From a virus: a DNA stretch of 30,646 bases. Below are positions 446 through 29,333 of this stretch, piece by piece; within the stretch, counting starts at the first letter, position 1; each line of letters opens with the position of its first letter. A program made the position numbers and the translations under genes. The stretch spans positions 1 through 30,646 of the IMG/VR virus record IMGVR_UViG_3300037076_000041; one strand, given 5' to 3'. The notes below the pieces were generated by a model, which saw only the letters and a program-made list of their open reading frames with translations, made no database searches and was not told the DNA's origin.

Positions 446-457
446 GTTTCTGGAAAC
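446..457 (+). promoter_or_regulatory. GTTTCTGGAAAC motif, intergenic copy
   Basis: Perfect copy of the 12-bp motif, 2 bp beyond the stop codon of the leftward gene ending at 460 and 9 bp from the 22-bp inverted repeat. It lies in the only gap between two leftward genes. Confidence 0.75.
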
Positions 458-459
458 GC

Positions 460-795
460 CTACTCTTTCGGTCCCTTGCGGGATGTGTCCCGAGGCGTGC
501 TGTCGCAAGACTTGCACTTGTACGAGTTGACGCGGCTGGGCGCCTTCGGCCCTTTGCACCGGACGCACACGTCGGTGCCAGCTCCCCAGGTTGCGCCACG
601 GGCCAGGTTCGCAGCGGCCTTGGCGGTGATCGTACAGGGAGTTTCCCGTACAGGCTCCGGCGTCAGTGCGCTCAGCAGTCTTTTCATCGTGGCCTCCAGC
701 GCTGCCACCCGTGCGACCAGTTCCTGATGGGGAGACAGGCCAGCCTCCTCTTCCTCCCAGAACGCGGCCTCTTCCTCGGGGGTCAAGTCGCTCAT
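460..795 (-). CDS. Small zinc-ribbon protein (paralogue of upstream gene)
   Basis: A 111-aa protein starting at ATG 795 (MSDLTPEEEAAFWEEEE). The N-terminal half (about residues 10-45) is acidic and heptad-like, suggesting a coiled coil. The C-terminal half has C77-x2-C80 and C94-x2-C97, a four-cysteine zinc ribbon, followed by a basic tail. The start overlaps the stop of the preceding leftward gene by ATGA, so translation is probably coupled. The core ARGATxGAGTDxCxxCKG is shared with that gene (residues 59-74 there), so the two are tandem duplicates. A longer frame opening at 864 was rejected because it would overlap the upstream gene extensively. A nucleic-acid or protein-binding role is likely from the ribbon, but no specific function is known. 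Confidence 0.8.
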   Translation of the reverse strand: MSDLTPEEEAAFWEEEEAGLSPHQELVARVAALEATMKRLLSALTPEPVRETPCTITAKAAANLARGATWGAGTDVCVRCKGPKAPSRVNSYKCKSCDSTPRDTSRKGPKE

Positions 796-1076
796 GCCTT
801 GCCGCCGTCGCACTGGGAGCACCTGTTCGAGTTGAAGCGTCGGGCCTCCTTCTCCCCCTTGCACGTGGCGCAGATGTCGGTACCTGCTCCCGCAGTGGCC
901 CCACGAGCGAGCCGTGCCAGCGCAGCCGGTGACGCTACCCGCTTAGGTTCTGCTGGACAGGAACTTTCCCGTACTCCTGCCGCGTCTTCGAGGGCCTTGA
1001 GGCGCCGGTTGAAGTTCTTGTTCATGGCGCGGAGCGCTGTCTCCATCTGCTCCATGGTCATCGGTTCGGTACTCAC
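792..1076 (-). CDS. Small zinc-ribbon protein, first of a tandem pair
   Basis: A 94-aa protein with a GTG start at 1074-1076, preceded by AGGAGA at good distance. Residues 8-32 are predicted helical or coiled-coil. C69-x2-C72 and C86-x2-C89 form a four-cysteine zinc ribbon near the C-terminus. The stop overlaps the next start as ATGA. The region around AxLARGATAGAGTDICATCKG matches the downstream paralogue closely. A leftward extended -10 element (TGATACCGT) lies 32-40 bp upstream, so this gene likely opens a leftward operon of two or three genes. The control region behind it holds the four-copy motif array. Members of such ribbon families may bind DNA, RNA or polymerase; here that is only a guess. 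Confidence 0.8.
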   Translation of the reverse strand: MSTEPMTMEQMETALRAMNKNFNRRLKALEDAAGVRESSCPAEPKRVASPAALARLARGATAGAGTDICATCKGEKEARRFNSNRCSQCDGGKA

Positions 1077-1344: not shown

Positions 1345-1506
1345 GTTTCTGGAAACACCCGGTATGGCAAGTTTCCCTGTTTCTGGAAACACCCGGTATG
1401 GCAAGTTTCCATGTTTCTGGAAACGGTCTGTGCGTGAGGGGGTTATGGCAAGTTTCCATGTTTCTGGAAACGGTCTGTGCGTGAGGGGGTTATGGCAAGT
1501 TTCCAT
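1345..1506. repeat. Tandem array with four GTTTCTGGAAAC copies
   Basis: Perfect motif copies lie at 1345-1356, 1379-1390, 1413-1424 and 1460-1471. Two 34-bp units (from 1345 and 1379) are followed by two 47-bp units (from 1413 and 1460). Each unit also carries ATGGCAAGTTTCC, at about 1364, 1398, 1445 and 1492. The first two have the full GGTATGGCA half-site seen in the leader inverted repeats. The array lies upstream of the leftward operon beginning at 1076 and looks like a multi-operator control region. Confidence 0.85.
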
Positions 1507-2205: not shown

Positions 2206-2907
2206 CTACGCGGCGTCCTTGGCAGCGGCGTCCTTGGCAGCCTTGGCAGCCTTGGCAGCCTTGGCAGCGTCGGCCTTGGCAGCCTTGGCAGCCTTGGCAG
2301 CGTCGGCCTTGGCGTCCCGTGCGTCCTTGGCAGCGTCGGCCTTGGCGTCCCGTGCGTCCTTGGCAGCGGCGTCCTTGGCAGCCTTGGCCGCCACGCGCTG
2401 GGAGGCATCGGTCCGGAGGTATTCGGCAATGACTCGCCCGATCTCAGAATCGGCCGACACGGTCACGCGCTGGGCATCGGGTCCCGTAGAGAAGACCCCC
2501 AGGGTGATCGTGGCATCGGCTGCCACGTCGTCGGCCTCGGCCTTGAGGATGGCAGTCAGCGCCATACGCACGCGGTTGAAACCGTGCCCCTCAGGTGTGG
2601 TGACTTGCGCACCCTTGCCACCGATCGTGCGCTGAAGTGGCTTACTGTCCGGAGTGACCATGTAACGGTGGATGGCATCCGACACGGTGGCCGTGGTGAC
2701 CGTGAAACCGTGGGCGGTTGCGTACGTGAGGATGGCGCGTGCCACGTCGGAAGACTTGGCCTCGGCCTTGGCTTCCATGCGGCCGATCTCACGCATGGTG
2801 AGCCGCGCGGTGCGGCGGGTTTCGACGTCGTCACTCCATACGGTGGCCTGACGCGCGGTGCGGGTCTCGGCAGTGGTGCGAATCGTCGTGGTGGTGGTGG
2901 TGCTCAT
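2206..2907 (-). CDS. Hypothetical protein with Ala/Lys/Asp repeat tail
   Basis: Start chosen at ATG 2905-2907 (MSTTTTTTIRTTAETRT), giving 233 aa. The frame extends to 3078, but that extension crosses the promoter and leader. Residues about 15-165 form an alpha/beta domain I do not recognise. The last about 60 residues are repeats of AAK, KAAKDA and DARDAKADA, a charged helical tail resembling histone H1-like or nucleoid-associated C-termini. The codons for it are near-identical GCC/AAG/GAC runs, so the DNA at about 2210-2395 is itself repetitive. A leftward sigma-70-like promoter and a 22-bp inverted repeat precede it. Nucleic-acid binding is a guess from the tail. Confidence 0.75.
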   Translation of the reverse strand: MSTTTTTTIRTTAETRTARQATVWSDDVETRRTARLTMREIGRMEAKAEAKSSDVARAILTYATAHGFTVTTATVSDAIHRYMVTPDSKPLQRTIGGKGAQVTTPEGHGFNRVRMALTAILKAEADDVAADATITLGVFSTGPDAQRVTVSADSEIGRVIAEYLRTDASQRVAAKAAKDAAAKDARDAKADAAKDARDAKADAAKAAKAAKADAAKAAKAAKAAKDAAAKDAA

Positions 2908-3188: not shown

Positions 3189-3200
3189 GTTTCTGGAAAC
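3189..3200 (+). promoter_or_regulatory. GTTTCTGGAAAC motif, intergenic copy
   Basis: Perfect copy downstream of the tandem promoters. It is embedded in the 20-bp sequence 3182-3201 (ACTAGGT, then the motif, then C), which recurs at 4583-4602 on the other side of the glycosyltransferase gene. Confidence 0.8.
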
Positions 3201-3270: not shown

Positions 3271-3279
3271 TGGTACGGT
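3271..3279 (+). promoter_or_regulatory. Extended -10 promoter for a leaderless gene
   Basis: TGG-TACGGT followed by 6 nt and then ATG at 3286. The predicted start point is at the ATG itself. The same arrangement precedes the second glycosyltransferase gene. Confidence 0.55.
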
Positions 3280-4589: not shown

Positions 4590-4601
4590 GTTTCTGGAAA
4601 C
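4590..4601 (+). promoter_or_regulatory. GTTTCTGGAAAC motif at the promoter of the RHH gene
   Basis: Perfect copy 2 bp after the glycosyltransferase stop codon and 7 bp upstream of the -10 of the next gene, overlapping the expected -35 position. It is the right-hand copy of the 20-bp direct repeat (4583-4602). Confidence 0.8.
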
Positions 4602-4605
4602 CCCG

Positions 4606-4614
4606 TGTTACAGT
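4606..4614 (+). promoter_or_regulatory. Extended -10 promoter of the RHH gene
   Basis: TGT-TACAGT. The predicted start near 4621 gives a short leader carrying the strong AGGAGGT before ATG 4644. The adjacent motif suggests direct control. Confidence 0.55.
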
Positions 4615-4643
4615 ATGGCTCAACAAGACAGAGGAGGTGTGCC

Positions 4644-4805
4644 ATGGGCTGGCCGACAACGAGCAACCCGCGCACGGAGTTCGTGACCCTGCGGCTGACG
4701 CAGGACGAGGCGGCTGACCTGGACGCACTGGTCCTGAAGACCGGGGCGCGCAGCAGATCATCCGCGCTGCGTGCTGCCTTGAAGCGCGCTGCACGCCAGA
4801 AGTAG
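4644..4805 (+). CDS. 53-aa ribbon-helix-helix DNA-binding protein
   Basis: Begins MGWPTTSNPRTEFVTLRLT. Residues 12-18 form a beta strand (EFVTLRL), 20-33 helix 1 (QDEAADLDALVLKT) and 38-50 helix 2 (RSSALRAALKRAA), the Arc/CopG/MetJ-type fold. Such proteins dimerise, insert the strand pair into the DNA major groove and usually bind short palindromes cooperatively. AGGAGGT sits 6 nt before the ATG, the strongest ribosome site in the window. Its promoter abuts a GTTTCTGGAAAC copy, so it could be autoregulated and could be the protein that binds all copies; that is inference. Other roles, such as a local regulator of packaging genes, are possible. Confidence 0.75.
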   Translation: MGWPTTSNPRTEFVTLRLTQDEAADLDALVLKTGARSRSSALRAALKRAARQK

Positions 4806-4828: not shown

Positions 4829-4990
4829 ATGACCGGCAGGGCTGTCATAGAGCTTTGTCCACCCATCAACCTGGACGAGCACCCAGGGGCGCGGGAGGGC
4901 ACGCACAGGCCGAGGAACTGCCCGACATGCCGGGCTGCGATCTGTGGGTGCCCGTACCATAGGGCTCTGAGCTTGGAGGGAGAGACGTGA
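4829..4990 (+). CDS. 53-aa zinc-binding-like protein
   Basis: ATG 4829 follows AGGA at about 9 nt. The product MTGRAVIELCPPINLDEHPG... carries a C-terminal cluster C31-x2-C34-x4-C39-x-C41-x2-H44 that probably binds zinc. The stop TGA overlaps the GTG start of the small terminase gene (GTGA at 4987-4990), a sign of translational coupling. It could be a structural zinc knuckle protein assisting terminase, but I do not recognise a family. Confidence 0.6.
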   Translation: MTGRAVIELCPPINLDEHPGAREGTHRPRNCPTCRAAICGCPYHRALSLEGET

Positions 4991-5640
4991 GCAAGATCCC
5001 AGCCGGGGCCGTGCGGCGCAGTACAGCCACGGGCGAGAAGGTGATGACCACGAAGCAGGCGGAGGCCCAGCGGCGCAAGCAGCTTGAGAAGGACGACGCC
5101 AAGCGGCTGGCCCAGGTGGTGAACCTGCACATCGCGGGGTTCTCGCTGGCTGACATCGGTGCCGCTATAGGCAGCTCCGCTGCCGATGTAGACAGAATGC
5201 TGACCAACGACACGGCGCGCTATGTCCGGAGCCAACCGGCTCTAAGGACGTACGTCAGGAACTACATCAGCGGCAAGTACGCGAAGCTCCTGGACGCGGT
5301 GTGGGACACGGCAAGCGACCCCGCCGCGCCCATGGACGCGAAGCTGGCCCACCAGGACAGGGCTGTCAGGATCTTGGAGCGCATGGCGAAGCTGCACGGT
5401 GCGGATGCACCCACCCAGACGGAAGTCACCGTGGACGTAGTCCCCGAGAACGTTGACAAGATGGTGAGGCTGCTGAGTGCTGCGCAGGGTCTCGGCTACG
5501 ACAGCTCGATCTTCGATGACGTGGTCGAGGGTGAGATCGTGGACGAGATGGTCGAGGAGTCGCAGTTGGCTCTGGAGCGCAGTGCCGAGGCCGTAGGTGT
5601 CACATATGACACCGATGAGCCCCTAAGGTCTCAGAAATGA
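4987..5640 (+). CDS. terS: Small terminase subunit (probable)
   Basis: A 217-aa protein with a GTG start preceded by GGAGGGAGAG. Residues about 30-80 contain a helix-turn-helix-like segment (VVNLHIAGFSLADIGAAIG, then SSAADVDRML), typical of the DNA-recognition domain of small terminases. The central part (90-140) is helical and suited to oligomerisation. The acidic C-terminus (VVEGEIVDEMVEE) may contact the large subunit. The role is to recognise the packaging site and regulate the large subunit. The stop overlaps the large terminase start as ATGA at 5637-5640. Identity rests on position, size and the helix-turn-helix; the fold is not conserved enough to be certain. Confidence 0.75.
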   Translation: MSKIPAGAVRRSTATGEKVMTTKQAEAQRRKQLEKDDAKRLAQVVNLHIAGFSLADIGAAIGSSAADVDRMLTNDTARYVRSQPALRTYVRNYISGKYAKLLDAVWDTASDPAAPMDAKLAHQDRAVRILERMAKLHGADAPTQTEVTVDVVPENVDKMVRLLSAAQGLGYDSSIFDDVVEGEIVDEMVEESQLALERSAEAVGVTYDTDEPLRSQK

Positions 5641-7283
5641 GCACTCTGCTGGCTACAAGAGGGATAGCACAGGAGTTCAACCGGCTCTCTGACCTGGAGC
5701 AGCAGGAAGTCGCCAAGAGGCTACTCAAACTCGAAGAGTCGGGCTGGAAGCCGTTCTGGTGCAAGGACAAGGACTGTGACGGGAACCCGCACTGGCTGGT
5801 AGGACCCGATGGGGCGGCGGTGTTTCTGGAAACAGGCTCTGTTGTGCCCCCAAACGTCACCGTGGACCCGGCTTTCCCCGAGGGATACGTCGTTGAATAT
5901 GATGACGGCGGCACAGTCAACTGGGGACTGCCCGTTTTGGACCCCGCGTGGTCCCACAACCACGCCAGAGCGGACCAGAGGCTCCCCGGATGGTCGAAAC
6001 CGTGGACTTTGTTCATCATGTCAGGACGCGGGGCTGGGAAAACTACGACCGGCGTCGAGTTCGTCACTTTGTGCGCCCGAAAAGGGCTCGATGGGGCGAT
6101 TCTTGGCCGTCGTGGCACCGAACTCGTCAACACCCACGTCGCAACGCTGCTGGTGAGGGCACATCCGGACTTCAGGCCCATCTTCTACGCCAGCAAGGAC
6201 ATCCTGGTGTGGCCGAATGGGGCTACCACCTACCTGTTCTCCGCTGAGAAGCCCGAGAACATCCGATCTGTGAACATCTCGTACGCATGGGTCGACGAAG
6301 CGGCCCATATGGACGAGATCGAGACAGCATGGATGAACATCAAGCTCGCAACCCGTATCGAGAAGCCCGGCAGTCCGATCCACAAGCTGATCACGTCCAC
6401 GCCCACCCCGACGCAGTGGGTGATGAAGATGGAGGACGACCCCGACATCATCGTGCGCAGGGTGAGCACCTACGCCAACCGGGCGAACCTCTCCAAGGAC
6501 TACATGGAGGAACTGGAGAAGTCCTACGAGGGCACGCGCATCGGTCGGCAGGAACTTCACGGAGAGGTTCTGCGCGATGTCGAGGGCGCGATGTGGAACG
6601 ACGACATGTTCACGCACTTCCGGTGCTCGACCCCGGAGATGTTCGACGCCCTGCTGGACGCTCAGGATGACATCGTGCTGGCCGTGGACCCGGCAGGCTC
6701 GAAGGGCAAGAGGTCCGACGCCACCGGCATCATCGGCGTGGGGGCCATGCACTTCGGCGAGGACTCTGTTCGCTTGAGGTCTTCGACCTTTGATGTACTC
6801 TGTCGCGCCACGATCAAGGGCACACCGAACGAGTGGGCCGAGCAGACGTTCAAGGCGGCGCGACACATCAAGGCCAGGCGGATCAGGGCCGAGAAGAACT
6901 TCGGTGGCGACATGGTCAAGCAGGTGCTGACCGACTACGCCCGTCTTAATCCTGAAGAGACGTGCGACGAGAACGGCGAGCGGTTCGTCATTGAAGTAGT
7001 ACATGCGGTCAAATCAAAAGAGACCCGCGCAGAGGCCACAGTGGGCAAGTATGAGCAGGGACGGGTGCGGCATGTCACCTCACCGGGCGTGTACGGGGAT
7101 CTGAGTGACCTGGAGAAGCAGCAGGTCACGTGGGTACCCAAGAGCCGTGGGGGGCGTATGCCGTCTCCTAACGACATCGACGCACTCGTGTGGGCCGTGA
7201 TGGGCCTGGAGGCGAAGAACAGGTTCGCTGCCCAGTCGGCGGGCCGGGACACACTCAAGAAGTTCATGAAAGGGAGGCAGTGA
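5637..7283 (+). CDS. terL: Large terminase subunit (packaging ATPase and nuclease)
   Basis: A 548-aa protein that drives DNA into the procapsid and cuts concatemers. The ATPase half has Walker A SGRGAGKT at 129-136, a Walker B-like YAWVDEAA (216-223, D220-E221) and a coupling motif TSTPTP (253-258). The RNase H-like nuclease half starts at VLAVDPAGS, with D351 and D361 as metal ligands, and ends with NDIDALVWAVMG supplying another Asp. N-terminal C43-x3-C47 is unusual. A GTTTCTGGAAAC copy at 5822-5833 encodes FLET (63-66) in the poorly conserved N-terminal region. Translation is coupled to the small subunit by ATGA and to the next gene by TGATG. Confidence 0.95.
   Translation: MSTLLATRGIAQEFNRLSDLEQQEVAKRLLKLEESGWKPFWCKDKDCDGNPHWLVGPDGAAVFLETGSVVPPNVTVDPAFPEGYVVEYDDGGTVNWGLPVLDPAWSHNHARADQRLPGWSKPWTLFIMSGRGAGKTTTGVEFVTLCARKGLDGAILGRRGTELVNTHVATLLVRAHPDFRPIFYASKDILVWPNGATTYLFSAEKPENIRSVNISYAWVDEAAHMDEIETAWMNIKLATRIEKPGSPIHKLITSTPTPTQWVMKMEDDPDIIVRRVSTYANRANLSKDYMEELEKSYEGTRIGRQELHGEVLRDVEGAMWNDDMFTHFRCSTPEMFDALLDAQDDIVLAVDPAGSKGKRSDATGIIGVGAMHFGEDSVRLRSSTFDVLCRATIKGTPNEWAEQTFKAARHIKARRIRAEKNFGGDMVKQVLTDYARLNPEETCDENGERFVIEVVHAVKSKETRAEATVGKYEQGRVRHVTSPGVYGDLSDLEKQQVTWVPKSRGGRMPSPNDIDALVWAVMGLEAKNRFAAQSAGRDTLKKFMKGRQ
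5822..5833 (+). promoter_or_regulatory. GTTTCTGGAAAC motif inside terL
   Basis: Perfect copy within the N-terminal coding region, read as FLET. It is sense-oriented with respect to transcription. Confidence 0.75.
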
Positions 7284-7575: not shown

Positions 7576-7581
7576 ATGCCC

Positions 7582-8406
7582 ATGACTCAGCAGCGCATCG
7601 ACGTGGCGATCTCCACGACCGGACAGCCCCATCGGATGGCGTTTCTGGAAACTTGTGTACGCAGTTGGTTCGCTGCCCTGGCGGGCAGGGGCACCGTGAC
7701 CGTCACCGTGGATGGTTCTCGCGCTGACGCCGAGCGCGTCGTGGATGTGTTGCAGTACCAGAACCCAGCCCCCATGGTGGTGTGGCTGGGTTCTGATACC
7801 GGCACCAGGCTGGGCGTCGCCGCGAACAAGAACACCGGACTGGAGCTGTTGACCGCTGCCGGTGCCGAGCACATGTTCCTCTCCGATGATGACGCGTGGC
7901 CGACATGTGTGGGTGCGCTGGATCTGCACACGTACTACTGCTCTCCGATGCACTCCATGGTGAACTGGGGTCCTCACCGGCTCGACCCGCGCATGGAGTG
8001 GACGTGGCCTCGCGGCTCCATCCTCTACACGCGCAAGACCGTGCTGAACAAGGTGGGCGGAATGATCGAGGCGTTCGGCACCGGAGGCCACGAGCACGTC
8101 GAGTGGAGCAGGCGGATCAACCAGGCGGGTCTCACGCCCGTCCTGTACCCGTCCCCCATCGTCTACGCCGGAACCGAGGGTGGCTACGGCGCGCGACCGT
8201 TCTGGCACTGCGAGGACATGCCCACAGAGGGCGAGCACATGTCCATGACCATGGCTCGGCGGCGCAGGCTCACGAGCATGGACAGGCCCCCAGAAGCAGC
8301 CGAGAAGGCCGAGAAGATCATGGACGCAATGGACGGCACACCCCGGTTCATCCCCTACACTGCTGAGGGAAACAGGCGCAAGCGCGCTATTGTTGTCCTC
8401 GACTGA
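7582..8406 (+). CDS. GT-A family glycosyltransferase
   Basis: A 274-aa single-domain enzyme. The opening strand RIDVAISTTGQPHR binds the nucleotide sugar, GVAANKNTGLELL (78-90) is the family helix, and SDDDAW (101-106) carries the metal-binding DxD. WPRGSILYTRK and the GHEHVEWSRRI segment fit the acceptor and catalytic regions. Acceptors are unknown. With the two-domain enzyme at 3286 it may act on the same virion target. ATG 7582 is preferred over 7576 because the gene appears leaderless and lacks a Shine-Dalgarno. It lies alone between terminase and portal genes with its own promoter, like an accessory moron. A GTTTCTGGAAAC copy at 7641 encodes FLET (21-24). Confidence 0.82.
   Translation: MTQQRIDVAISTTGQPHRMAFLETCVRSWFAALAGRGTVTVTVDGSRADAERVVDVLQYQNPAPMVVWLGSDTGTRLGVAANKNTGLELLTAAGAEHMFLSDDDAWPTCVGALDLHTYYCSPMHSMVNWGPHRLDPRMEWTWPRGSILYTRKTVLNKVGGMIEAFGTGGHEHVEWSRRINQAGLTPVLYPSPIVYAGTEGGYGARPFWHCEDMPTEGEHMSMTMARRRRLTSMDRPPEAAEKAEKIMDAMDGTPRFIPYTAEGNRRKRAIVVLD
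7641..7652 (+). promoter_or_regulatory. GTTTCTGGAAAC motif inside the glycosyltransferase gene
   Basis: Perfect copy about 60 bp after the predicted transcript start, read as FLET. Confidence 0.75.
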
Positions 8407-8841: not shown

Positions 8842-10823
8842 TGGCACGCAGGTACACCGGAGCGGTTTCTGGAAACAGCCGTACCCCCAGCCTGCGTGCG
8901 CAGGGCATGAACATGGCCGGACAGAACGTGGTGCGCGCCGGGATGGCGTCCTCCACGTCGATGTATAAGTCGGGCACCCCGCTGAAGGATCAGCGGTTCA
9001 ACCGCAACTCCCTCGCCAAGGCGTGGCAGATCGAGGCGTACCGGCAGATCGACATCTGCGGTGAGGCCCGCTACGCGGTGACGCTGTTCGCCAACATGGC
9101 TGCACGCGCCGAGATCGGTGTGTCCGAGCCGCAGGCGTTGGCGGGCAAGGCCGTGTGGGTGACCTCCGGCCCCGAGTTCGACGCCTTCTCCGAACTGGCC
9201 CCGACCGTGCGTGACCGCCAGAAGTTGATCAAGTCGTTCACGATGCACTACACCATCGCTGGTGAGTCCTACCTGATCGCGCGTGAGCGCCTGGAGATCG
9301 ATCCCCCCGGCCCTGATCCCATGATCTGGGAGTTCGTGGCCGTCACCGAACTCCAGAGGATGGGTCCGGTGTGGAGGATCCGTCACGAGAACAAGCAGTG
9401 GCTCGAACTGAAGCCCACCGACCCGGTCATCCGCATGTGGAACGCGGACCCGTCCGAACGGCAGGAGGCGTGGTCCCCGTTCCGTTCGATGGCCGACACG
9501 CTGACCGAGATCGAATGGTTGACCAAGCACATCTTCACGCAGGTCAAGTCGCGTCTCATGAGCGCGGGCGTGTGGTTCCTGCCGAACAACCTGACCTTCC
9601 CTCCGCCCCCGCCCGAAGCGATCAACGGGGACTACGAGGAGACCATCGCCTCCATGAACGAGGCCGAGTTGTTCATGGTCTCCCTGGCTGCGTCCTCCAC
9701 TGCCTCGCTCGCCGACACCGATGTGGCCTTCCCCAGCGTCGTGCTGGCCGACGCCGAGTCCCTGGCAGCCATCGACCAGACAAGGTTGATCCAGTTCTGG
9801 TCGACCATCGACGACAAGGCCATGATCCTTCGAGCCGACGCCATCAAGCGGTTCGCGCTGGGCATGGACCTTCCCCCGGAGCAGGTTCTCGGCTCCAGCG
9901 GTCGGGCGGTTCCCGGCTCTGGAGCAGGCACTGGCGGCAGCGTGAACCACTGGGGTGTGTGGGCGAACGAGGAGCAGACGATCACGGCTCACATCGAGCC
10001 TGCGCTCAGCGACCTCTGTGCCGCTCTGACGAGTTCGTTCCTGGCGAACGCGGTGAAGGGCGGAACGGACAAGGTCATCGGCTTCAGCACTACGTCGCTG
10101 CGCCTGAAGCAGGACCGCAGCAAGGAAGCCCTGGAGTTGTGGGATCGCGGTCTCATCAAGGGAGAGGTCGCCCTCCGCGAGATCGGCTTCGATCCGGCCA
10201 ACGACGCGATGGGATCGGCGGAGTTCAAGCAGTGGCTCCTCCGCAAGATCGCCGGGGGCTCCGCGACACCGGAGCAGGTCCAGGCAGCGGTCCAACTGCT
10301 CGGGGTCGTCCTCCCCACCATCGAGCCGCCAGCCGTTTCTGGAAACCCGGCCCCTGTTCAGAAGGCGCTGCCTCCCGGCACCCCGGTTCCCGTGGCTCCC
10401 GCCGAGCCCGCTCCGGGCAAGCCTGGTGCTGGTCAGCCGCCGTCGCTGAAGGACCACCCGACCCCCAAGGGTCCTCCGCAGGGCACACACGACCACACAC
10501 CGGCTCCGTACAGCCTGGTGCATGTCTCTGAGGGTCTGGTGCTCCGCGCCCTGGAGAAGGCTGGTAACCGGCTCCTGAACGACGGCAAGCGTGGACGGGA
10601 CAAGGACCGCTCCACTCTGGCCCACGAGGCGCACTGCGTGGTCGAGCCGACCGAGGGTGTCTCGTTCGACTTCTCGATGGCCAGCACGGTGTTCTCAGAC
10701 CTCTCGCCCGCGCGCGCACGTGAGATCGTTACCAAGTTGGAGGCATTCTGCGATACCCTCTACTCGACGCGGCAGCCCTACAGCCGCAATGCCCTGATCG
10801 AGATGATGGCCAATGGCCTCTAA
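8841..10823 (+). CDS. Portal protein
   Basis: A 660-aa protein forming the dodecameric channel at the capsid vertex. Residues about 45-500 show the portal pattern: an N-terminal region with NRNSLAKAWQIEAYRQIDICG, the wing (GESYLIARERLE), the stem and clip (TLTEIEWLTKHIFTQVKSRLMSAGVWFLP), and the conserved AIKRFALGMDLPPEQVLGSSGR loop. Beyond 500 comes a Pro-rich linker and a 115-residue C-terminal extension of unknown fold. Two GTTTCTGGAAAC copies are in frame as VSGN, one near the N-terminus (8865) and one at the domain-linker junction (10335); both positions are likely disordered. It lies between the membrane protein and the lysis/fibre block, not next to the protease as is usual. Confidence 0.9.
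   Translation: MARRYTGAVSGNSRTPSLRAQGMNMAGQNVVRAGMASSTSMYKSGTPLKDQRFNRNSLAKAWQIEAYRQIDICGEARYAVTLFANMAARAEIGVSEPQALAGKAVWVTSGPEFDAFSELAPTVRDRQKLIKSFTMHYTIAGESYLIARERLEIDPPGPDPMIWEFVAVTELQRMGPVWRIRHENKQWLELKPTDPVIRMWNADPSERQEAWSPFRSMADTLTEIEWLTKHIFTQVKSRLMSAGVWFLPNNLTFPPPPPEAINGDYEETIASMNEAELFMVSLAASSTASLADTDVAFPSVVLADAESLAAIDQTRLIQFWSTIDDKAMILRADAIKRFALGMDLPPEQVLGSSGRAVPGSGAGTGGSVNHWGVWANEEQTITAHIEPALSDLCAALTSSFLANAVKGGTDKVIGFSTTSLRLKQDRSKEALELWDRGLIKGEVALREIGFDPANDAMGSAEFKQWLLRKIAGGSATPEQVQAAVQLLGVVLPTIEPPAVSGNPAPVQKALPPGTPVPVAPAEPAPGKPGAGQPPSLKDHPTPKGPPQGTHDHTPAPYSLVHVSEGLVLRALEKAGNRLLNDGKRGRDKDRSTLAHEAHCVVEPTEGVSFDFSMASTVFSDLSPARAREIVTKLEAFCDTLYSTRQPYSRNALIEMMANGL
8865..8876 (+). promoter_or_regulatory. 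GTTTCTGGAAAC motif at the portal N-terminus
   Basis: Perfect copy 24 bp after the portal start codon, encoding VSGN (residues 9-12). Confidence 0.75.
10335..10346 (+). promoter_or_regulatory. GTTTCTGGAAAC motif in the portal linker
   Basis: Perfect copy encoding VSGN at the start of the Pro/Ala-rich linker (about residue 499). Confidence 0.75.
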
Positions 10824-12471: not shown

Positions 12472-12483
12472 GTTTCCAGAAAC
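12472..12483 (-). promoter_or_regulatory. GTTTCTGGAAAC motif (reverse) at a fibre promoter
   Basis: Perfect reverse copy in the leader, 13 bp after the -10 and 19 bp before the GTG start of the first fibre gene. Confidence 0.8.
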
Positions 12484-14010: not shown

Positions 14011-16902
14011 ATGACGCTGATGTCAGAGGGATCGCAGACTCCCCGTGTCATCCCCTGGCACAACGCTCCTGGAATCCCTGTTGCTCAGGTTCTAGTTGGG
14101 GACGACGGTCTCATCCCCGGAGAACTTATGGCTGGTGGCGGGCTCTATGACGCGGTGAAGCGGACCACGGATTCCATGCCCGCTGGCTCCCTGGCCGTGT
14201 TCAACCAGTGGATACACAACCCCGCCGTTGGTGCCCTGGACCCGGTCAACGCGGCTATGCGTATTCTCCTCGGGTCGCGGCTAGCGTTGGTGGCCGATTC
14301 TCTCCGGGTCTCAGATCAGTACCGGGGTACTGCAAGCATGAACTGGGCGGGGGTGTACGACAATTCTGGCTACATGAAGCAGAACGGGATCACGCTCTTT
14401 ACCCAGGCCGTCCCGATTGTCCATGAGTACGGCCATCACGTCGACTGCCGGTACAAAGAGTTGGTACTTGACGCCTCCCCCGCTAACGGAACAAACTGGC
14501 TCACAGCATCTCCTCCATTCAGTACATTGGCAGAGGCCTCAATCCCTGGCATTCCGGATGGGGTATACGCGAAAACCAATTCGTTGGAATGGTTCGCAGA
14601 GACATGGGCGGCTCTCCTCACCGGGAATAACAACAACGGCACCAACATGACGGATGCCGATTTCATCAGCCACTGTGCGGGAGGAGACGCAACACGAGCA
14701 GCGGCCATCAAGACAGCGTTCTATGCCCTCTTCCCTGGTCTCTTCCCCACATTCCCTATCACGCAGCCAACGTCGACCTCTCCAACCATCCTGCGCCTAT
14801 TCACGGTCCGTGATGGGAACGGGACGGGAAACCTCACCCCAGCGGTACCCGCGTACATGTACTTCGATGATGCCACCACTGACACCACTGCGCAGGCCCA
14901 CCTCAGTGCCAGTGATACGTCATTCATCTATACGTTCCTCAGCGTAGCTGCTACGGGTAATGAGGGCAACGACCTCACAGTGACCTGGCAGCGCTCGGAT
15001 AATGGTGTTACGTGGGTGGACTGGATGGCGATGGGGGCGATCTGGGGTGGCGAACTCTCATTCATGAACTCTCCGGATCGCACAAAACCGTTCGTTCGAG
15101 CCAAGATCACAAACGGTGCAGGGACCGCATACAGCGGCCTATACACACTTCAGACCATCACCCCTCCGACATTCACGACGCAACCCGCTGGTGGGGATCT
15201 ATCGGTAGCAACGGGTGCGGCTACCACCCTCACCGCAGCGGTGTCGTCTGGTGCAACTCTTCAGTGGCAGTACAGCAGTGATGGTTTCACGTGGACCGAC
15301 CTGACGGGGGAGGTTTCCGGAAACCTAGTCCTGACCGCAGGCTCGGGGAATGCCCTCAACATGTACCAATTCCGGTGCCTGGCTATCAAGCCTGGGTGTA
15401 CTCGTGTCCCTTCCAGTGTCACGTCCCTATACGTGATCACTAGCGCCCCCACCATCACCTCGAACCCCACGAGCCAAACGTTCGCCGACGCAGCTTCTAT
15501 CAGCGACTCCGCATCCGCTACCGGCTGGTCCAGCATGTACTGGCAGTCCTCCCCTGACAACGCCACATGGACCGCGATCTCTGGGCAGACCGACAACTTC
15601 CTATCGGGTACCGCAGGCACCGCACCCTTCACCCCAGGAACAAAGTACGTACGGGCTGCGTACGTAAACCCCGTGGGGACGACCTATACGAGTGCGGCGA
15701 CCTACACGATCAGCGCCCCTGCCGTGGCCCCCGTGATTACCACGCAGCCCACAGGAGGAACGTTCGCCTACGCGGCAGCGATCAGAGCCACGGCAGCCGC
15801 GACGGGAGCGACCTCGCAGCAGTGGCAGCAGTCGGCCAATGGCACTACGGGGTGGACGAGCCTCTCGGGTCAGACCACCACGACTCTGTCGGGTACGTCT
15901 GGGACGAGCCCGTTCGTCACCGGAACCCTGTACGTGCGGTGTGCCTTCACCAATGCAGCGGGTACGACCAATAGCTCTGCCGTTGCCATGATCGCGAGCG
16001 CCCCCGCCGTGGCCCCCGTGATTACCACGCAGCCGATTGGCGGAGACTACGCCATCGCGGACACCCCGACGCTCACAGCCGCCGCCACAGGCGCTACCAG
16101 TCAGAAGTGGCAGAGCAGCCCGGACAGCATGACGTGGACCGATATCTCGGGTGCCACAACGACCAGCCTCGCCCTTACCGCAGGCACAGCCCCCGCAGTG
16201 AACGGCCCTATCTACTTCCGCTGCGTGTTCACCAACGCCACGGGATCTACCAACACCAACGCCGTCATCGTGGGTACCAAATACTTCACTGGACCCGGCA
16301 CCGCCTACCTAGCTATCAATGGAAACACTGGCCTCGTTCCTCAGCTCCCGTCAGCGGTCTCAGCACTCACTTTCGCGTGCCCCCCTGCGTATGGCTACCC
16401 TGCACTCACGTACCAATGGAAGTCTGGGACAAGTAGCAGCTCGGGCACTATGACCAGCATCACAGGCGCTACGTCACAGACTCTCTCAGCGACCTTTGGG
16501 ACGACACCATATGTTCGGAACCGATACTTCCGGTGCGTTGTCTCCAACTCGGTAGGCACCGCCACCTCGTCTTACGTCAAGCTCCAGGATGGCTACTACG
16601 CCACCCTCATCACGCACCTTGACGCCACCCCTCACACATATACATTGGCTTCCGCCACTACATACACCACCTCGGTCACCTACACCGATGGTGACCCCTC
16701 AGGAACTGTCTCGTGGGCGTACATCAAGAATGGGGACGGTGCAACCTATACGGTCATCGCTGGACAGACCTCAGCCACCCTTAGCGTGGTTCTCTCCGCC
16801 GCGAACGGATACTCGGCGGGAAGCTATGTTTTCTACGCCGTGGTCACCAATACGTTTGGGGCGATGGGCTCGAACCCCTCGGGGGCTGTGACCCTTACCT
16901 GA
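14011..16902 (+). CDS. Large fibre protein with zinc-peptidase-like domain and Ig-like repeats
   Basis: A 963-aa protein. The N-terminal 250 residues carry the gluzincin-type motif H138-E139-Y-G-H142 in VPIVHEYGHHVDC and, 50 residues on, NSLEWFAETWA, where E193 or E197 would be the third zinc ligand, as in lethal-factor-like peptidases. From about 255 to the end come at least five Ig-like repeats, each opening like PxITTQPTGG, with a central WQ (QWQQSANGTTGW) and ending YxRCxFTNAxGTT. The protein likely projects from the tail and could cut a host surface protein or process a virion partner. Activity is inferred from the motif. A single-base variant of GTTTCTGGAAAC is embedded at 15313. ATG 14020 is an alternative start. 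Confidence 0.75.
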   Translation: MTLMSEGSQTPRVIPWHNAPGIPVAQVLVGDDGLIPGELMAGGGLYDAVKRTTDSMPAGSLAVFNQWIHNPAVGALDPVNAAMRILLGSRLALVADSLRVSDQYRGTASMNWAGVYDNSGYMKQNGITLFTQAVPIVHEYGHHVDCRYKELVLDASPANGTNWLTASPPFSTLAEASIPGIPDGVYAKTNSLEWFAETWAALLTGNNNNGTNMTDADFISHCAGGDATRAAAIKTAFYALFPGLFPTFPITQPTSTSPTILRLFTVRDGNGTGNLTPAVPAYMYFDDATTDTTAQAHLSASDTSFIYTFLSVAATGNEGNDLTVTWQRSDNGVTWVDWMAMGAIWGGELSFMNSPDRTKPFVRAKITNGAGTAYSGLYTLQTITPPTFTTQPAGGDLSVATGAATTLTAAVSSGATLQWQYSSDGFTWTDLTGEVSGNLVLTAGSGNALNMYQFRCLAIKPGCTRVPSSVTSLYVITSAPTITSNPTSQTFADAASISDSASATGWSSMYWQSSPDNATWTAISGQTDNFLSGTAGTAPFTPGTKYVRAAYVNPVGTTYTSAATYTISAPAVAPVITTQPTGGTFAYAAAIRATAAATGATSQQWQQSANGTTGWTSLSGQTTTTLSGTSGTSPFVTGTLYVRCAFTNAAGTTNSSAVAMIASAPAVAPVITTQPIGGDYAIADTPTLTAAATGATSQKWQSSPDSMTWTDISGATTTSLALTAGTAPAVNGPIYFRCVFTNATGSTNTNAVIVGTKYFTGPGTAYLAINGNTGLVPQLPSAVSALTFACPPAYGYPALTYQWKSGTSSSSGTMTSITGATSQTLSATFGTTPYVRNRYFRCVVSNSVGTATSSYVKLQDGYYATLITHLDATPHTYTLASATTYTTSVTYTDGDPSGTVSWAYIKNGDGATYTVIAGQTSATLSVVLSAANGYSAGSYVFYAVVTNTFGAMGSNPSGAVTLT
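15313..15324 (+). promoter_or_regulatory. GTTTCTGGAAAC variant (GTTTCCGGAAAC) inside the fibre gene
   Basis: One base differs (T to C), making a fully symmetric site inside the 16-bp palindrome 15312-15327. It encodes VSGN like the other intragenic copies and lies in the otherwise longest motif-free interval (12472 to 16926). Confidence 0.55.
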
Positions 16903-16916: not shown

Positions 16917-17069
16917 CACAACACCGTTTCCAGAAACGGTGTCACCACGAACTCCACCTACGTCCACACGGCGATTTACCATCCTGGGGGTTCGGCGTTC
17001 ATCGCCCTCCGGGTCACTAATTCCGCCGATTCGTACATCACAGGCGAAGTCATAATCAACCTCACCTGA
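16917..17069 (+). pseudogene. Remnant of a fibre Ig-like domain
   Basis: Fifty codons are open up to TGA 17067-17069 but begin after an in-frame stop (16914-16916) and contain no ATG, GTG or TTG. The reading (TAIYHPGGSAFIALRVTNSA, then DSYITGEVIINLT) has the pattern of the last strands of an Ig-like domain and parallels the end of the upstream fibre (VFYAVVTNTFG...GAVTLT). It is in a different frame from that gene. It looks like the 3' end of a replaced fibre gene left behind by recombination. It is bracketed by motif copies at 16926 and 17073. Confidence 0.6.
16926..16937 (-). promoter_or_regulatory. GTTTCTGGAAAC motif (reverse) with extended symmetry
   Basis: Perfect reverse copy inside a longer imperfect palindrome, ACACCGTTTC-CA-GAAACGGTGT (16922-16943). 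It is downstream of the -10 at 16903-16908 and at the left end of the fibre remnant. Confidence 0.8.
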
Positions 17070-17072
17070 GCC

Positions 17073-17084
17073 GTTTCTGGAAAC
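17073..17084 (+). promoter_or_regulatory. GTTTCTGGAAAC motif upstream of the endolysin promoter
   Basis: Perfect copy 3 bp after the remnant stop codon and 12 bp upstream of the endolysin -10, covering the expected -35 position. Confidence 0.8.
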
Positions 17085-18065: not shown

Positions 18066-18077
18066 GTTTCCAGAAAC
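18066..18077 (-). promoter_or_regulatory. GTTTCTGGAAAC motif (reverse) at the head-module promoter
   Basis: Perfect reverse copy covering the predicted transcript start, 23 bp before the protease ATG. Confidence 0.8.
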
Positions 18078-18100: not shown

Positions 18101-20017
18101 ATGGCCAAGCCACTGACCGATCCCAGGATCACCCCCGTGGCCGACCCCACGAACAAGCCCCTGCTGGACCCCACGAACAAGCCCCTGCTGGACCCCACGA
18201 TCGATCCCGTCCCGGCTGACCCAGCGGTCGATCCCGAGGAGTCCACGGAGGACCCGGCTGAGGAGGCCACGGAGACTCCCGAGGAGGAGACCGCCGAGGA
18301 ACTGACCGAGCCGAGCCTGGACATGATCGACCTCATGGGCTCCACGCTTCCCGTCCACGGTGTGCTCGCCCCGGAGGACACCGCGTCCGGCGACGGTCGT
18401 GGCTTCGCACCCGGCGCTGTCACCAAGCGCGGGTACCGTCTGCCGCTCATGTGGCAGAAGGCGCAGAGCGACGCGCACGACAACTCCGTGGTCATTGGTT
18501 CCGTGGACAGGCTCATGCGCCAGGGCGGGATGATCCACTGGGAAGGCCAACTCATGGACTGCGCCGACGCGAACGAGTTCACGGGGATGCTGGCGTTCTT
18601 CGGTACCTTCGGCGTGAGTGTCGACGGAGACAAGGCTTCGATCAACTTCGACCAGGTAGACAAGACCGGCGTGCTGTGGTTCGACGCCGTCCGCGCTGCC
18701 GGTCTCACCGCTGTATCTGTCCCGGCGTTCCCGGAGGCGTACATCGCGTTCGGCCCGCACCCGGACATGCCTGTGGACGCACCCGCCATCGACGCCATGG
18801 CCGCGTCCGGCAACCTGGCGGACTTCGGTCGCGGTGCTGGCTGGGAGAAGAACCCCAAGGCCACGGCGCGCATCCACGACTACTGGACCGTGGCCGGACA
18901 GCCGGGCTACGCCAAGATCCGCTGGGGCACCGATGGTGACTTCACCCGTGCCCGGAAGTTGATCGGCGAGAAGATCGGACTCCACAGTCCGCAGGATCTT
19001 CCGTACCTCAACCAGATCATCGCCCAGTGGCACCACGACGCTCTCGGCTACTGGCCCGGCCAGGCGAACATGCCGGGTAACCCGACGACGGCTGAGATCC
19101 GCGCACGTCGTCGTGGGGGCAAGGCTGCTGGCGAGACCGTCAGCCTGTCCCTGGCCGTTGCTGAGCCTGAGACGGACGAGGACGAGGATGAGACTGAGGA
19201 GACCGACTACGCCGCTGACGCCCTCGCCGCCGTCGACTACATCGACAGCGTCATCCTCGACGGTGACGGCGGCTGGGAGGCCGTGCTCACATCTTCGGCT
19301 CGGGCACCCCGCAACCTTCCCCCGGCCAGTTACTTCGACCGGCACCCGGAGACCGGCGCGCTCGTGATCGAGGAGCCGGACGAGAACGGGATCAGGCGCA
19401 CCTACGGGTACGCGGGAGAGTGGGGCGTCTGCCACATCGGGTACGAGGGGCGCTGTGTCGGCGTTCCGGAGGACCCCGCTGGTGGCGAGTACCCGGACTT
19501 CCATCTCGGGCGCACCAAGGTTTCTGGAAACGGCTTCGTTAACACCGGACTCATTACCTACAAGACCGAGCACCGGGGCGGGCAGCAGATCCTGAGCGAG
19601 TCGGCGGAGCAGGCGCACTACGACAACGTCGCCAACGCATGGGCATCCGTCCGGCTGGGCGAGGATGACCGGGGCGTGTGGTTCTCCGGAGTCGTCCTGC
19701 CGCACGTCACCGAGGACGACATCACCCTCATCGAGGCGTCCGGCCAGGTCTCCGGCGAGTGGAAGTTCGGATCGCTGCGCGGGCTCCAGTCCGTGAACAT
19801 CCCCGGCTTCGCGGTGCTCCGGTCGAGCGCGGCATTCGACGCGGAGGGCGAACTGGTGTCGCTCGTAGCGTCCTCGTACGGGAACCTGCTCACTCCCACT
19901 GGGAAGTGCGAGCCGAGCCCCGCAGAACGGATGCAGGCGCTTGCCAGTGCCGATGCTGAGGTCCGTATGTCCCAGCTCAAGGCGCGGGTCTCCATGGGCA
20001 CAGAGGGGGCGCTCTGA
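18101..20017 (+). CDS. Capsid maturation protease
   Basis: A 638-aa protein preceded by AGAGAGG. The first 80 residues hold the repeat DPTNKPLL-DPTNKPLL-DP and then an acidic Glu/Thr stretch, probably disordered. Residues 80-240 (HGVLAPEDTASGDGR, WQKAQSDAHDNSVVIG, MIHWEGQLMD) fit the protease-like N-terminal half. KATARIHDYWTVAGQPGYAK and the following WHHDALGYWPGQ are hallmarks of this actinobacteriophage family. The C-terminal part (HYDNVANAWASVRLGEDDRG, then VWFSGVVLPHVTEDDITLIE and SGEWK) matches the conserved protease/scaffold region that cleaves the capsid precursor. The motif copy at 19520 encodes VSGN between domains. An internal scaffold function is possible. The gene overlaps the next by TGATG. 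Confidence 0.8.
   Translation: MAKPLTDPRITPVADPTNKPLLDPTNKPLLDPTIDPVPADPAVDPEESTEDPAEEATETPEEETAEELTEPSLDMIDLMGSTLPVHGVLAPEDTASGDGRGFAPGAVTKRGYRLPLMWQKAQSDAHDNSVVIGSVDRLMRQGGMIHWEGQLMDCADANEFTGMLAFFGTFGVSVDGDKASINFDQVDKTGVLWFDAVRAAGLTAVSVPAFPEAYIAFGPHPDMPVDAPAIDAMAASGNLADFGRGAGWEKNPKATARIHDYWTVAGQPGYAKIRWGTDGDFTRARKLIGEKIGLHSPQDLPYLNQIIAQWHHDALGYWPGQANMPGNPTTAEIRARRRGGKAAGETVSLSLAVAEPETDEDEDETEETDYAADALAAVDYIDSVILDGDGGWEAVLTSSARAPRNLPPASYFDRHPETGALVIEEPDENGIRRTYGYAGEWGVCHIGYEGRCVGVPEDPAGGEYPDFHLGRTKVSGNGFVNTGLITYKTEHRGGQQILSESAEQAHYDNVANAWASVRLGEDDRGVWFSGVVLPHVTEDDITLIEASGQVSGEWKFGSLRGLQSVNIPGFAVLRSSAAFDAEGELVSLVASSYGNLLTPTGKCEPSPAERMQALASADAEVRMSQLKARVSMGTEGAL
19520..19531 (+). promoter_or_regulatory. 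GTTTCTGGAAAC motif inside the protease gene
   Basis: Perfect copy encoding VSGN (about residues 474-477). Confidence 0.75.
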
Positions 20018-20946: not shown

Positions 20947-20958
20947 GTTTCTGGAAAC
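20947..20958 (+). promoter_or_regulatory. GTTTCTGGAAAC motif upstream of the small gene at 21022
   Basis: Perfect copy 19 bp after the stop codon and 11 bp before the -10 at 20970. Confidence 0.8.
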
Positions 20959-22432: not shown

Positions 22433-22444
22433 GTTTCCAGAAAC
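22433..22444 (-). promoter_or_regulatory. GTTTCTGGAAAC motif (reverse) at the capsid promoter
   Basis: Perfect reverse copy ending 6 bp before the -10 element of the major capsid gene. Confidence 0.8.
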
Positions 22445-24309: not shown

Positions 24310-24360
24310 CTAGTGGGGGTGGCCCGGTTTCTGGAAACGGGGACCGGGTCACCCCCTCTA
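24310..24360 (+). terminator. Hairpin terminator after the capsid gene with motif in the loop
   Basis: GGGGGTGGCCCGGT (24315-24328) pairs with ACCGGGTCACCCCC (24343-24356) over 14 bp, including one G-U. CTAG at both edges extends it. The loop contains most of GTTTCTGGAAAC. No T-run follows. Confidence 0.65.
24327..24338 (+). promoter_or_regulatory. GTTTCTGGAAAC motif in the terminator loop
   Basis: Perfect copy whose first two bases end the left stem arm; the rest is in the loop. No promoter is obvious nearby. Confidence 0.8.
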
Positions 24361-25207: not shown

Positions 25208-25687
25208 ATGTCACGCCAGCCTGGTAACACCTTCATCCGCACCGGGACCGTCCTTCCCAACGGATCGACCAAGGACACGGCGGTCCTGCTGATCGGGATG
25301 GCCGAGGAGTGGGGCTTCCCCTACGACTCGGTATTCGCTTCCAGCGGAGGCTTCTACGTCTCCGACGACCTCGCTGCCGTCCTGGTCAGCGAGGGGCTTC
25401 TCCCCTACGATGAGGGCATGAGTCCCGCCCCCGAGCCCCGGTACGCCATCGAGCCCGTTTCTGGAAACGAGCCTGACACGACCGAGGACGAGACGTACGA
25501 CCCGGCTGACTTCACGGTCGAGGCCGTCAAGGAAACCCTCATGGAGATCGCTGACACCGAGTTCGCACAGAGCGTCCTCGATGCTGAGATCGCCGGGAAG
25601 AACCGCACGACGCTGATCGTGTGGATCACGGACTACCTGGCTCAGACGACTGAGGCCAGCGCAACCACGACTCCCGAGGAGGAGTAG
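25208..25687 (+). CDS. Hypothetical head-tail region protein (159 aa)
   Basis: ATG 25208 directly after the previous stop. Residues 1-70 (MSRQPGNTFIRTGTVLPNGS, LLIGMAEEWGFPYDSVFASS, SDDLAAVLVSEGLLPY) form a compact alpha/beta unit. A Pro/Glu-rich linker follows and encodes VSGN at the motif copy 25457. The C-terminal about 60 residues are helical (FTVEAVKETLMEIADTEFAQ, SVLDAEIAGKNRTTLIVWIT), resembling a small SAP/LEM-like or chaperone domain, though I cannot confirm it. Probably a head or connector component, judging from position. Confidence 0.65.
   Translation: MSRQPGNTFIRTGTVLPNGSTKDTAVLLIGMAEEWGFPYDSVFASSGGFYVSDDLAAVLVSEGLLPYDEGMSPAPEPRYAIEPVSGNEPDTTEDETYDPADFTVEAVKETLMEIADTEFAQSVLDAEIAGKNRTTLIVWITDYLAQTTEASATTTPEEE
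25457..25468 (+). promoter_or_regulatory. GTTTCTGGAAAC motif inside the linker of the 25208 gene
   Basis: Perfect copy encoding VSGN in the interdomain linker (residues 84-87). Confidence 0.75.
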
Positions 25688-26474: not shown

Positions 26475-26486
26475 GTTTCTGGAAAC
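26475..26486 (+). promoter_or_regulatory. GTTTCTGGAAAC motif after the -10 of the connector genes
   Basis: Perfect copy covering the predicted start, 19 bp before the GTG start. Confidence 0.8.
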
Positions 26487-27754: not shown

Positions 27755-28648
27755 ATGCTGACACGCCAAATGCGTAAGCGCGGCGCTACGGTCATGGTCG
27801 AGGCCCACGGCGAACTGCTGTTCGCTCCGGGGACCGAACTGGCCACGTGGAAGGATCGGTTCTCGAACCGCATGACCGCTGCCGTAGTCGCGTTCGCCCC
27901 AACGCACGGGGACACGGGAGCACGGGGATACCGTCCGCATCCGGGGCCGCACCTGAAAGAGACCATCACCTCGAAGACGAGTACCCGAATCACGGCGGGT
28001 GGCGGTAGCTACTACATCGCCACGGGGTCGAGGTCCAACTACGCGCTGTATCCGGACCAGGGAACCGGTGTGTACGCGGGTCACAGTCCGTTCCTTGTTA
28101 AGGTGCTGCCGCCTATGGAGTTCGGCCAGCCCTCGCTGTATGAGCGCAACGCACCGTGGATCAAGCCCAACAAGCAGATCGTCGTCCAAGGACAGCGAGC
28201 AAAGCATTACTTCGACCGGGGTCTGACGAAGGCTTTCCAGAGCATGATCCATCGATCCTGGGTCCTTCCGGGCGAGGGAGTCAGCGGCATGAAGGATGCC
28301 CTGACCGCGTTTCCAGAAACGCTCGCCGCCGCCGTTGCCGCGAACACCATGGCCGATGCAGCATTCAGTGCACGCCTCACCTTGTGGCGTTCATGGCGCG
28401 AGGCAGCGTACGGCTCCAAGAAACGTAGTGAGCTTGCTACCAGCTTGAACAAAATCAAGAAGGCTGGCCAGAAGCGCGGTGCGAACAATGAGCAGCTCGC
28501 TGGTCACACCGCTCGGCTACAGGCGTGGGCCAACGGCAAGGGGTTCAAGATCAGGAAGGTTGTGGTCCTGAAGACCTGGCAGCACACGTTCGAGGTCGAG
28601 GTCAGACCCGGAGTGTGGCAGGCAAAGCACGGGACGTGGAACCCATAA
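27755..28648 (+). CDS. Neck protein, HK97 gp10-like (probable)
   Basis: A 297-aa protein, ATG 27755. The central part (SNYALYPDQGTGVYAG, SPFLVKVLPPM, then KQIVVQGQRAKHYFDRGLTK-AFQ) matches the pattern of HK97-gp10-type neck proteins: Y-A-x-Y-x-x-x-G-T-x-x-Y-x-G followed by x-V-x-G-Q-x-x-x-x-Y-F. It would be part of the head-tail joint. A C-terminal extension (about 200-297) of basic helices (LWRSWREAAYGSKKRSELAT, NKIKKAGQKRGANNEQLAGH) is unusual. The motif copy at 28309 sits at the junction with it, reading FPET. Confidence 0.65.
   Translation: MLTRQMRKRGATVMVEAHGELLFAPGTELATWKDRFSNRMTAAVVAFAPTHGDTGARGYRPHPGPHLKETITSKTSTRITAGGGSYYIATGSRSNYALYPDQGTGVYAGHSPFLVKVLPPMEFGQPSLYERNAPWIKPNKQIVVQGQRAKHYFDRGLTKAFQSMIHRSWVLPGEGVSGMKDALTAFPETLAAAVAANTMADAAFSARLTLWRSWREAAYGSKKRSELATSLNKIKKAGQKRGANNEQLAGHTARLQAWANGKGFKIRKVVVLKTWQHTFEVEVRPGVWQAKHGTWNP
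28309..28320 (-). promoter_or_regulatory. GTTTCTGGAAAC motif (reverse) inside the neck gene
   Basis: Perfect reverse copy in the sense-strand frame FPET, in the longer palindrome GCGTTTC-CA-GAAACGC. Confidence 0.75.
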
Positions 28649-29321: not shown

Positions 29322-29333
29322 GTTTCTGGAAAC
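29322..29333 (+). promoter_or_regulatory. GTTTCTGGAAAC motif before the tape measure gene
   Basis: Perfect copy 17 bp after the chaperone frame ends and 14 bp before the tape measure ATG. Confidence 0.8.

Follow-up and report, generated by a model that had tools for sequence, protein, structure and literature searches.

A 53-residue ribbon-helix-helix protein as candidate reader of a strict, evenly dispersed palindrome in one clade of phage genomes

The DNA around a small gene at position 4644 of this phage raises the question of which protein reads a 12-letter palindrome repeated along the genome, and what such reading would do. The palindrome, called M1 here (GTTTCYRGAAAC, general form GTTTC-YR-GAAAC), is found in 24 exact copies in the window, that is, the whole 30,646-bp stretch analysed, a phage fragment with relatives of up to 61-65 kb. 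About 0 copies are expected, and none with exactly one mismatch was found; up to two mismatches, the count was 25 against 1.9 expected in shuffles. Relatives of 61-65 kb carry 37-53 copies each. Counted over whole records, the numbers are 50 (G001), 53 (G002), 48 (G016), 37 (G019 and G024), 29 (G026) and 12 (G004), and over eight genomes the variants altered at one half-site base amount to six copies only. The centre is always a pyrimidine-purine step, mostly TG or CA, with the CA orientation preferred among intergenic copies. About half of the sites are intragenic, and many of the intergenic ones either precede a start codon by 13-30 bp or closely follow a stop codon. A role as hairpin terminator was rejected because of the two-base loop, the presence of both centre orientations and the intragenic copies. 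A literature search on the letters of the motif returned unrelated papers only. The coordinates of the copies and of the other features are collected in Table 1; the four copies within 127 bp at 1345-1471 form the sole such cluster in the window.

The distribution of these sites proved to be far from random. Their mean spacing is about 1.1-1.7 kb over the whole genome, with few clusters, and the coefficient of variation of the spacing was 0.30-0.62, compared with about 0.95 under random placement; against a null that keeps the intergenic share, the evenness was still significant (0.42-0.55 vs 1.1-1.2). Intragenic copies were found at the same aligned position in relatives in 20 of 28, 17 of 21 and 16 of 18 cases, with about 0.4-0.5 expected, and all 12 letters were identical at 50-67% of the alignable coding sites, compared with 3-5% of control windows. 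Taken together, the even spacing, the conserved intragenic positions and the identity at coding sites suggest that M1 is under selection as DNA and at a roughly regular density. The sequence-only reading had proposed a reader that binds its sites with cooperative spacing, and this part was not borne out, as almost every site stands alone, about 1 kb from the next. Searches of the literature for evenly spaced phage palindromes found none, nor any matching phage control system.

Table 1. Positions of the features discussed (window coordinates unless a record is named)
Feature	Position	Strand	Remarks
M1 copy	446-457		exact match
Cluster of four M1 copies (1345, 1379, 1413, 1460) upstream of leftward genes	1345-1471		34/34/47-bp units
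M1 copy, intergenic	3189-3200		exact match
M1 copy GTTTCTGGAAAC upstream of RHH gene	4590-4601		exact match
Conserved promoter-like element GTGTTACAGTA	4605-4615	+	GTGKTACNGTA in relatives; putative promoter role
Shine-Dalgarno AGGAGGTG of RHH gene	4632-4639	+	predicted pairing -16.8 kcal/mol
RHH gene (53 aa), candidate M1 reader	4644-4805	+	Pfam RHH_1; AF2 model/PDB folds; orthologs in 7 further records
TerS-position gene (predicted small terminase), rival DNA binder	4987-5640	+	orthologs upstream of terL in clade records
M1 copy in terminase large subunit gene	5822-5833		exact match
M1 copy in predicted gene 7576-8406	7641-7652		exact match
M1 copy immediately upstream of called portal gene start	8865-8876		exact match
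M1 copy in portal gene	10335-10346		exact match
M1 copy, intergenic	12472-12483		exact match
M1 copy, intragenic	15313-15324		exact match
M1 copy, intergenic	16926-16937		exact match
M1 copy, intergenic	17073-17084		exact match
M1 copy, intergenic	18066-18077		exact match
M1 copy, intragenic	19520-19531		exact match
M1 copy, intergenic	20947-20958		exact match
M1 copy upstream of predicted capsid gene	22433-22444		exact match; 5 bp before element GCTACGGTA
M1 copy, intergenic	24327-24338		exact match
M1 copy, intragenic	25457-25468		exact match
M1 copy, intergenic	26475-26486		exact match
M1 copy, intragenic	28309-28320		exact match
M1 copy, intergenic	29322-29333		exact match
HTH-type protein, 174 aa, replication block	G001 45484-46008		orthologs in G002, G016, G019, G024, G026

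Analysis of the gene at 4644 bore out its earlier identification as a ribbon-helix-helix (RHH) protein, with a match to Pfam RHH_1 at E=5.7e-7 (29.7 bits, cutoff 20.5), and also the claim that its ribosome site is the strongest in the window, the predicted Shine-Dalgarno pairing ranking at the top among 32 called genes. The proteins of the window, G002 and G024 score above the RHH_1 cut-off and the other orthologs tested below it, while in the clade records the profile matches at the RHH locus only; in addition, PHROG 876 ('transcriptional repressor') matched all six RHH proteins tested. The AF2 model of the window protein (pLDDT 77) presents an unpaired, extended N-terminal segment followed by helices at residues 20-33 and 38-52. 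Its nearest PDB folds are mostly RHH proteins (MazE-mt1, NikR, AtaR, PutA), with weak scores (E>0.1), and by sequence NikR was the only solved structure matched (E=0.017). All eight orthologs have T or S at position 15 and R at position 17, the pair expected to contact bases, judging from solved RHH structures. In the G026 ortholog much of the N-terminal half has diverged, with T/S15 and R17 kept and M1 identical; an invariant N-terminal arm was thus dropped as support for M1 reading, and these two positions remain.

The M1 copy in front of this gene is located 3 bp past the stop of the upstream glycosyltransferase gene and 42 bp upstream of the RHH gene, and it adjoins a promoter-like element, within which TACAGT could be a -10 box. 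Relatives keep the form GTGKTACNGTA upstream of their RHH genes (G026 has the variant TGTGATACAGT), and it recurs upstream of several late genes. A scan for sigma-70 consensus promoters at the RHH gene found none. The sequence-only reading had placed a promoter directly after a motif copy and deduced possible autoregulation: the adjacency stands in the window, but just four of eight genomes (window, G004, G024 and G026) have M1 near the RHH promoter, at variable distances, so autoregulation is possible and not a conserved feature. The promoter-like pattern G[GTC]TACNGTA was seen at window positions 3272, 4607, 7568, 22449 and 28656, as well as in relatives, upstream of RHH, capsid, tail-chaperone and glycosyltransferase genes, with M1 4-6 bp before it in several cases.

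The co-occurrence of gene and motif, proposed earlier as a check, was then found in all eight records that cover the locus: homologs of the RHH protein are encoded in G001, G002, G004, G016, G024, G026 and L120, which together with the window all bear M1. G024 was retrieved through the RHH sequence alone and then shown to have its M1 copies, and conversely G004 was retrieved through the motif alone and then shown to have the RHH gene. The gene is missing from G017, G018, G019 and G025, four M1-bearing fragments that apparently do not cover its locus. Among the outgroups, 10 named phages and some 29 distant IMG/VR records were checked, and neither M1 nor this RHH subfamily was detected in them. 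Since all the positives belong to a single clade, the co-occurrence amounts to consistency, not to independent events or proof, and because about 30 other clade-specific genes share the same distribution, it cannot by itself single out the RHH gene. Furthermore, Microbacterium relatives, which lack M1, have a divergent RHH gene in the same place, so that the position of an RHH gene alone is no predictor of the motif. No relatives of the RHH protein appeared in INPHARED or GTDB genomes, nor in plasmids, where one weak match was without M1. An IMG/VR scan for motif pairs returned 13 contigs, of which G004 was the only true relative, the others being mostly coding repeats or short operator-like pairs. 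In an unrelated contig, two copies of GTTTCTAGAAAC were noticed immediately upstream of a gene whose product, judged by eye, resembles a different RHH protein (L006 1049-1095).

From the co-occurrence within one clade, the type of fold and the conservation of residues, the RHH protein emerges as the best available candidate for the reader of M1. The geometries of one-groove RHH readers and of helix-turn-helix (HTH) dimers are established structural knowledge, and M1, whose 12 bp form a palindrome without a gap and whose half-site centres lie 7 bp from each other, would suit the former better than a classic HTH dimer. The product of the 4644 gene, acting as a dimer, would most likely read M1, with T15 and R17 of its strand entering the major groove at the M1 dyad and the invariant pyrimidine-purine step permitting a bend. 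If the phage requires M1 about once per 1.1-1.7 kb throughout the genome, within and outside genes, the protein would organise or silence the genome at isolated sites; it could also repress at those few sites where M1 overlaps a promoter, the promoter of its own gene in the window genome among them. We give about an even chance to this reading, in which an RHH dimer reads M1 and acts genome-wide, not at promoters alone. RHH proteins tend toward cooperative binding of arrays, and isolated single sites would be unusual for them. A bolder version, in which the RHH protein of a lytic-type phage coats the genome at even, strict palindromes in a chromatin-like manner, the spacing itself being selected and not only gene position, seems to us possible and rather doubtful.

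The earlier statement that no other clear regulator is visible is valid for the fragment, but the longer relatives encode a predicted HTH-type protein, and the gene immediately downstream of the RHH gene, at the TerS position, is a possible DNA binder too. Either could be a clade-specific reader of M1, leaving the RHH protein to regulate something else, an explanation that we consider unlikely while taking it seriously. The HTH-type protein would be its likeliest form: it is present in all clade records covering its locus and thus co-occurs with M1 equally well, tblastn found no homolog of it in the outgroups, it shows weak HTH matches in Pfam, and its helix has R64, M67 and R68 unchanged across four orthologs. 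However, most positions of that recognition helix vary while M1 is invariant, the protein is best conserved at a C-terminal SPLAYLPMG motif, and the half-site distance of M1 is short for a classic HTH dimer. TerS, a lesser rival, has distant homologs in phages without M1.

It is less probable still that the RHH protein works as a stoperator-type repressor, combining promoter repression with roadblocks that silence the genome in lysogeny. M1 does overlap or adjoin promoter-like elements at the RHH, capsid and tail-chaperone genes, and its scattered sites resemble the stoperators of cluster A mycobacteriophages (PMC9283540, PMC6550527), but it is a palindrome with hardly any degenerate copies and about half of its sites inside genes, whereas stoperators are asymmetric, mainly intergenic, tolerant of substitutions and mostly in one orientation, and no report of their even spacing was found in the literature. 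In addition, the Phage_integrase profile gave no match to a tyrosine integrase in the clade records and none of them has ParB_N above the Pfam cut-off, which leaves lysogeny unsupported; for the latter reason, a ParB-like reader of M1 was rejected. Nothing positive points to reading by a host DNA-binding protein whose sites the phage merely carries; the half-site GTTTC is shared with the ParB site parS (GTTTCACGTGAAAC). Against this, which we regard as the least probable of the readings weighed here, the centre of M1 has two bases instead of the four of parS, and M1 is specific to the clade, with similar phages lacking it.

Beyond this clade, Kithara, Sunfish, Squash, OneinaGillian, SadLad, Fizzles, Phinky, Rizwana, Tank and Pointis each carry an over-represented palindrome of their own (4-30 copies), in most cases concentrated in the right arm. 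The window clade has an early-arm equivalent of these palindromes besides M1. This second strict palindrome is GTGCTAn4TAGCAC in G001 (L017 292-7518) and G002 (L021 8470-17518) and GATGCTAn5TAGCATC in the early arm of G016 (L041-L042), mostly between early genes; in the outgroup phages, the corresponding arm holds a different palindrome in each. Five Microbacterium phages have an RHH gene annotated close to the divergent junction that precedes the terminase genes, and Kithara and Sunfish have a possible one. The RHH strands of the Microbacterium phages do not covary with the palindromes, so the reader there is probably another protein. That the RHH protein might instead read the early-arm palindrome of the window clade was made less likely by this lack of covariation and by the confinement of that palindrome mostly to the leftward early arm. 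Among other features of these genomes, small leftward zinc-ribbon-like proteins are encoded at window 460-1076 and at L017 5524-5790, the latter, from G001, with a C-terminal part that is RHH-like by eye and undetected by Pfam. The C-terminus encoded by a leftward gene at window 2206-2907 (-) is repetitive and rich in Ala/Lys/Asp (DNA repeat family D1). Finally, the two ends of the G001 contig (L017 1-186 and L020 1116-2090) share the same gene stretch, which suggests a complete, circularly permuted genome.

Dispersed sites in phages are known mainly as the stoperators of temperate phages. A near-regular exact palindrome along genomes of 61-65 kb, conserved at the DNA level inside genes, suggests another use for such sites, which could be to organise, protect or silence the whole phage genome. 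With a candidate reader of only 53 residues, a single purified protein and a single oligonucleotide suffice to put the idea to a direct test. In the wider supergroup, every named relative examined has its own over-represented palindrome and many have an RHH gene at a fixed place.

Compared with known systems, the window protein has its predicted fold in common with NikR, CopG, MetJ-type and PHROG 876 repressors, with weak sequence similarity. The well-known RHH repressors have one or few operators each. HTH-ParB/parS and Noc resemble the M1 system in their GTTTC-type half-sites and strict palindromes, and Noc sites are scattered across a chromosome; unlike M1, HTH-ParB sites have a four-base centre and an HTH reader with a CTPase domain. 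Omega, the RHH ParB of pSM19035, is a small RHH dimer with sites overlapping its own promoter and a dual role in regulation and DNA organisation, as proposed for our candidate. Omega binds single sites weakly and requires an ATPase partner as well as 7-bp repeats that are contiguous (PMC9499535). In contrast to its heptad arrays, or to the contiguous repeats typical of RHH-ParB proteins such as Omega and ParG, M1 sites occur singly at distances of about 1 kb, and no ParA-type ATPase is among the Pfam and PHROG families shown for the leftward genes of G001. In cluster A phages, stoperators are dispersed over the genome (PMC9283540, PMC6550527). With them and their immunity repressor, as with the systems of Streptomyces phage R4 and Rhodococcus cluster CA, the M1 system shares one short motif at tens of sites, an actinophage-type genome and a phage protein as the likely reader. 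Stoperators differ in being 13-bp, asymmetric, degenerate, mostly intergenic and mostly oriented with transcription, and they serve temperate phages; M1 is strict, palindromic and evenly spaced, with an orientation bias confined to the central step of its intergenic copies. Lastly, the position of many intergenic M1 copies shortly before a start codon recalls the start-associated sequences of cluster K mycobacteriophages, from which M1 is set apart as a palindrome that also lies within genes and extends genome-wide.
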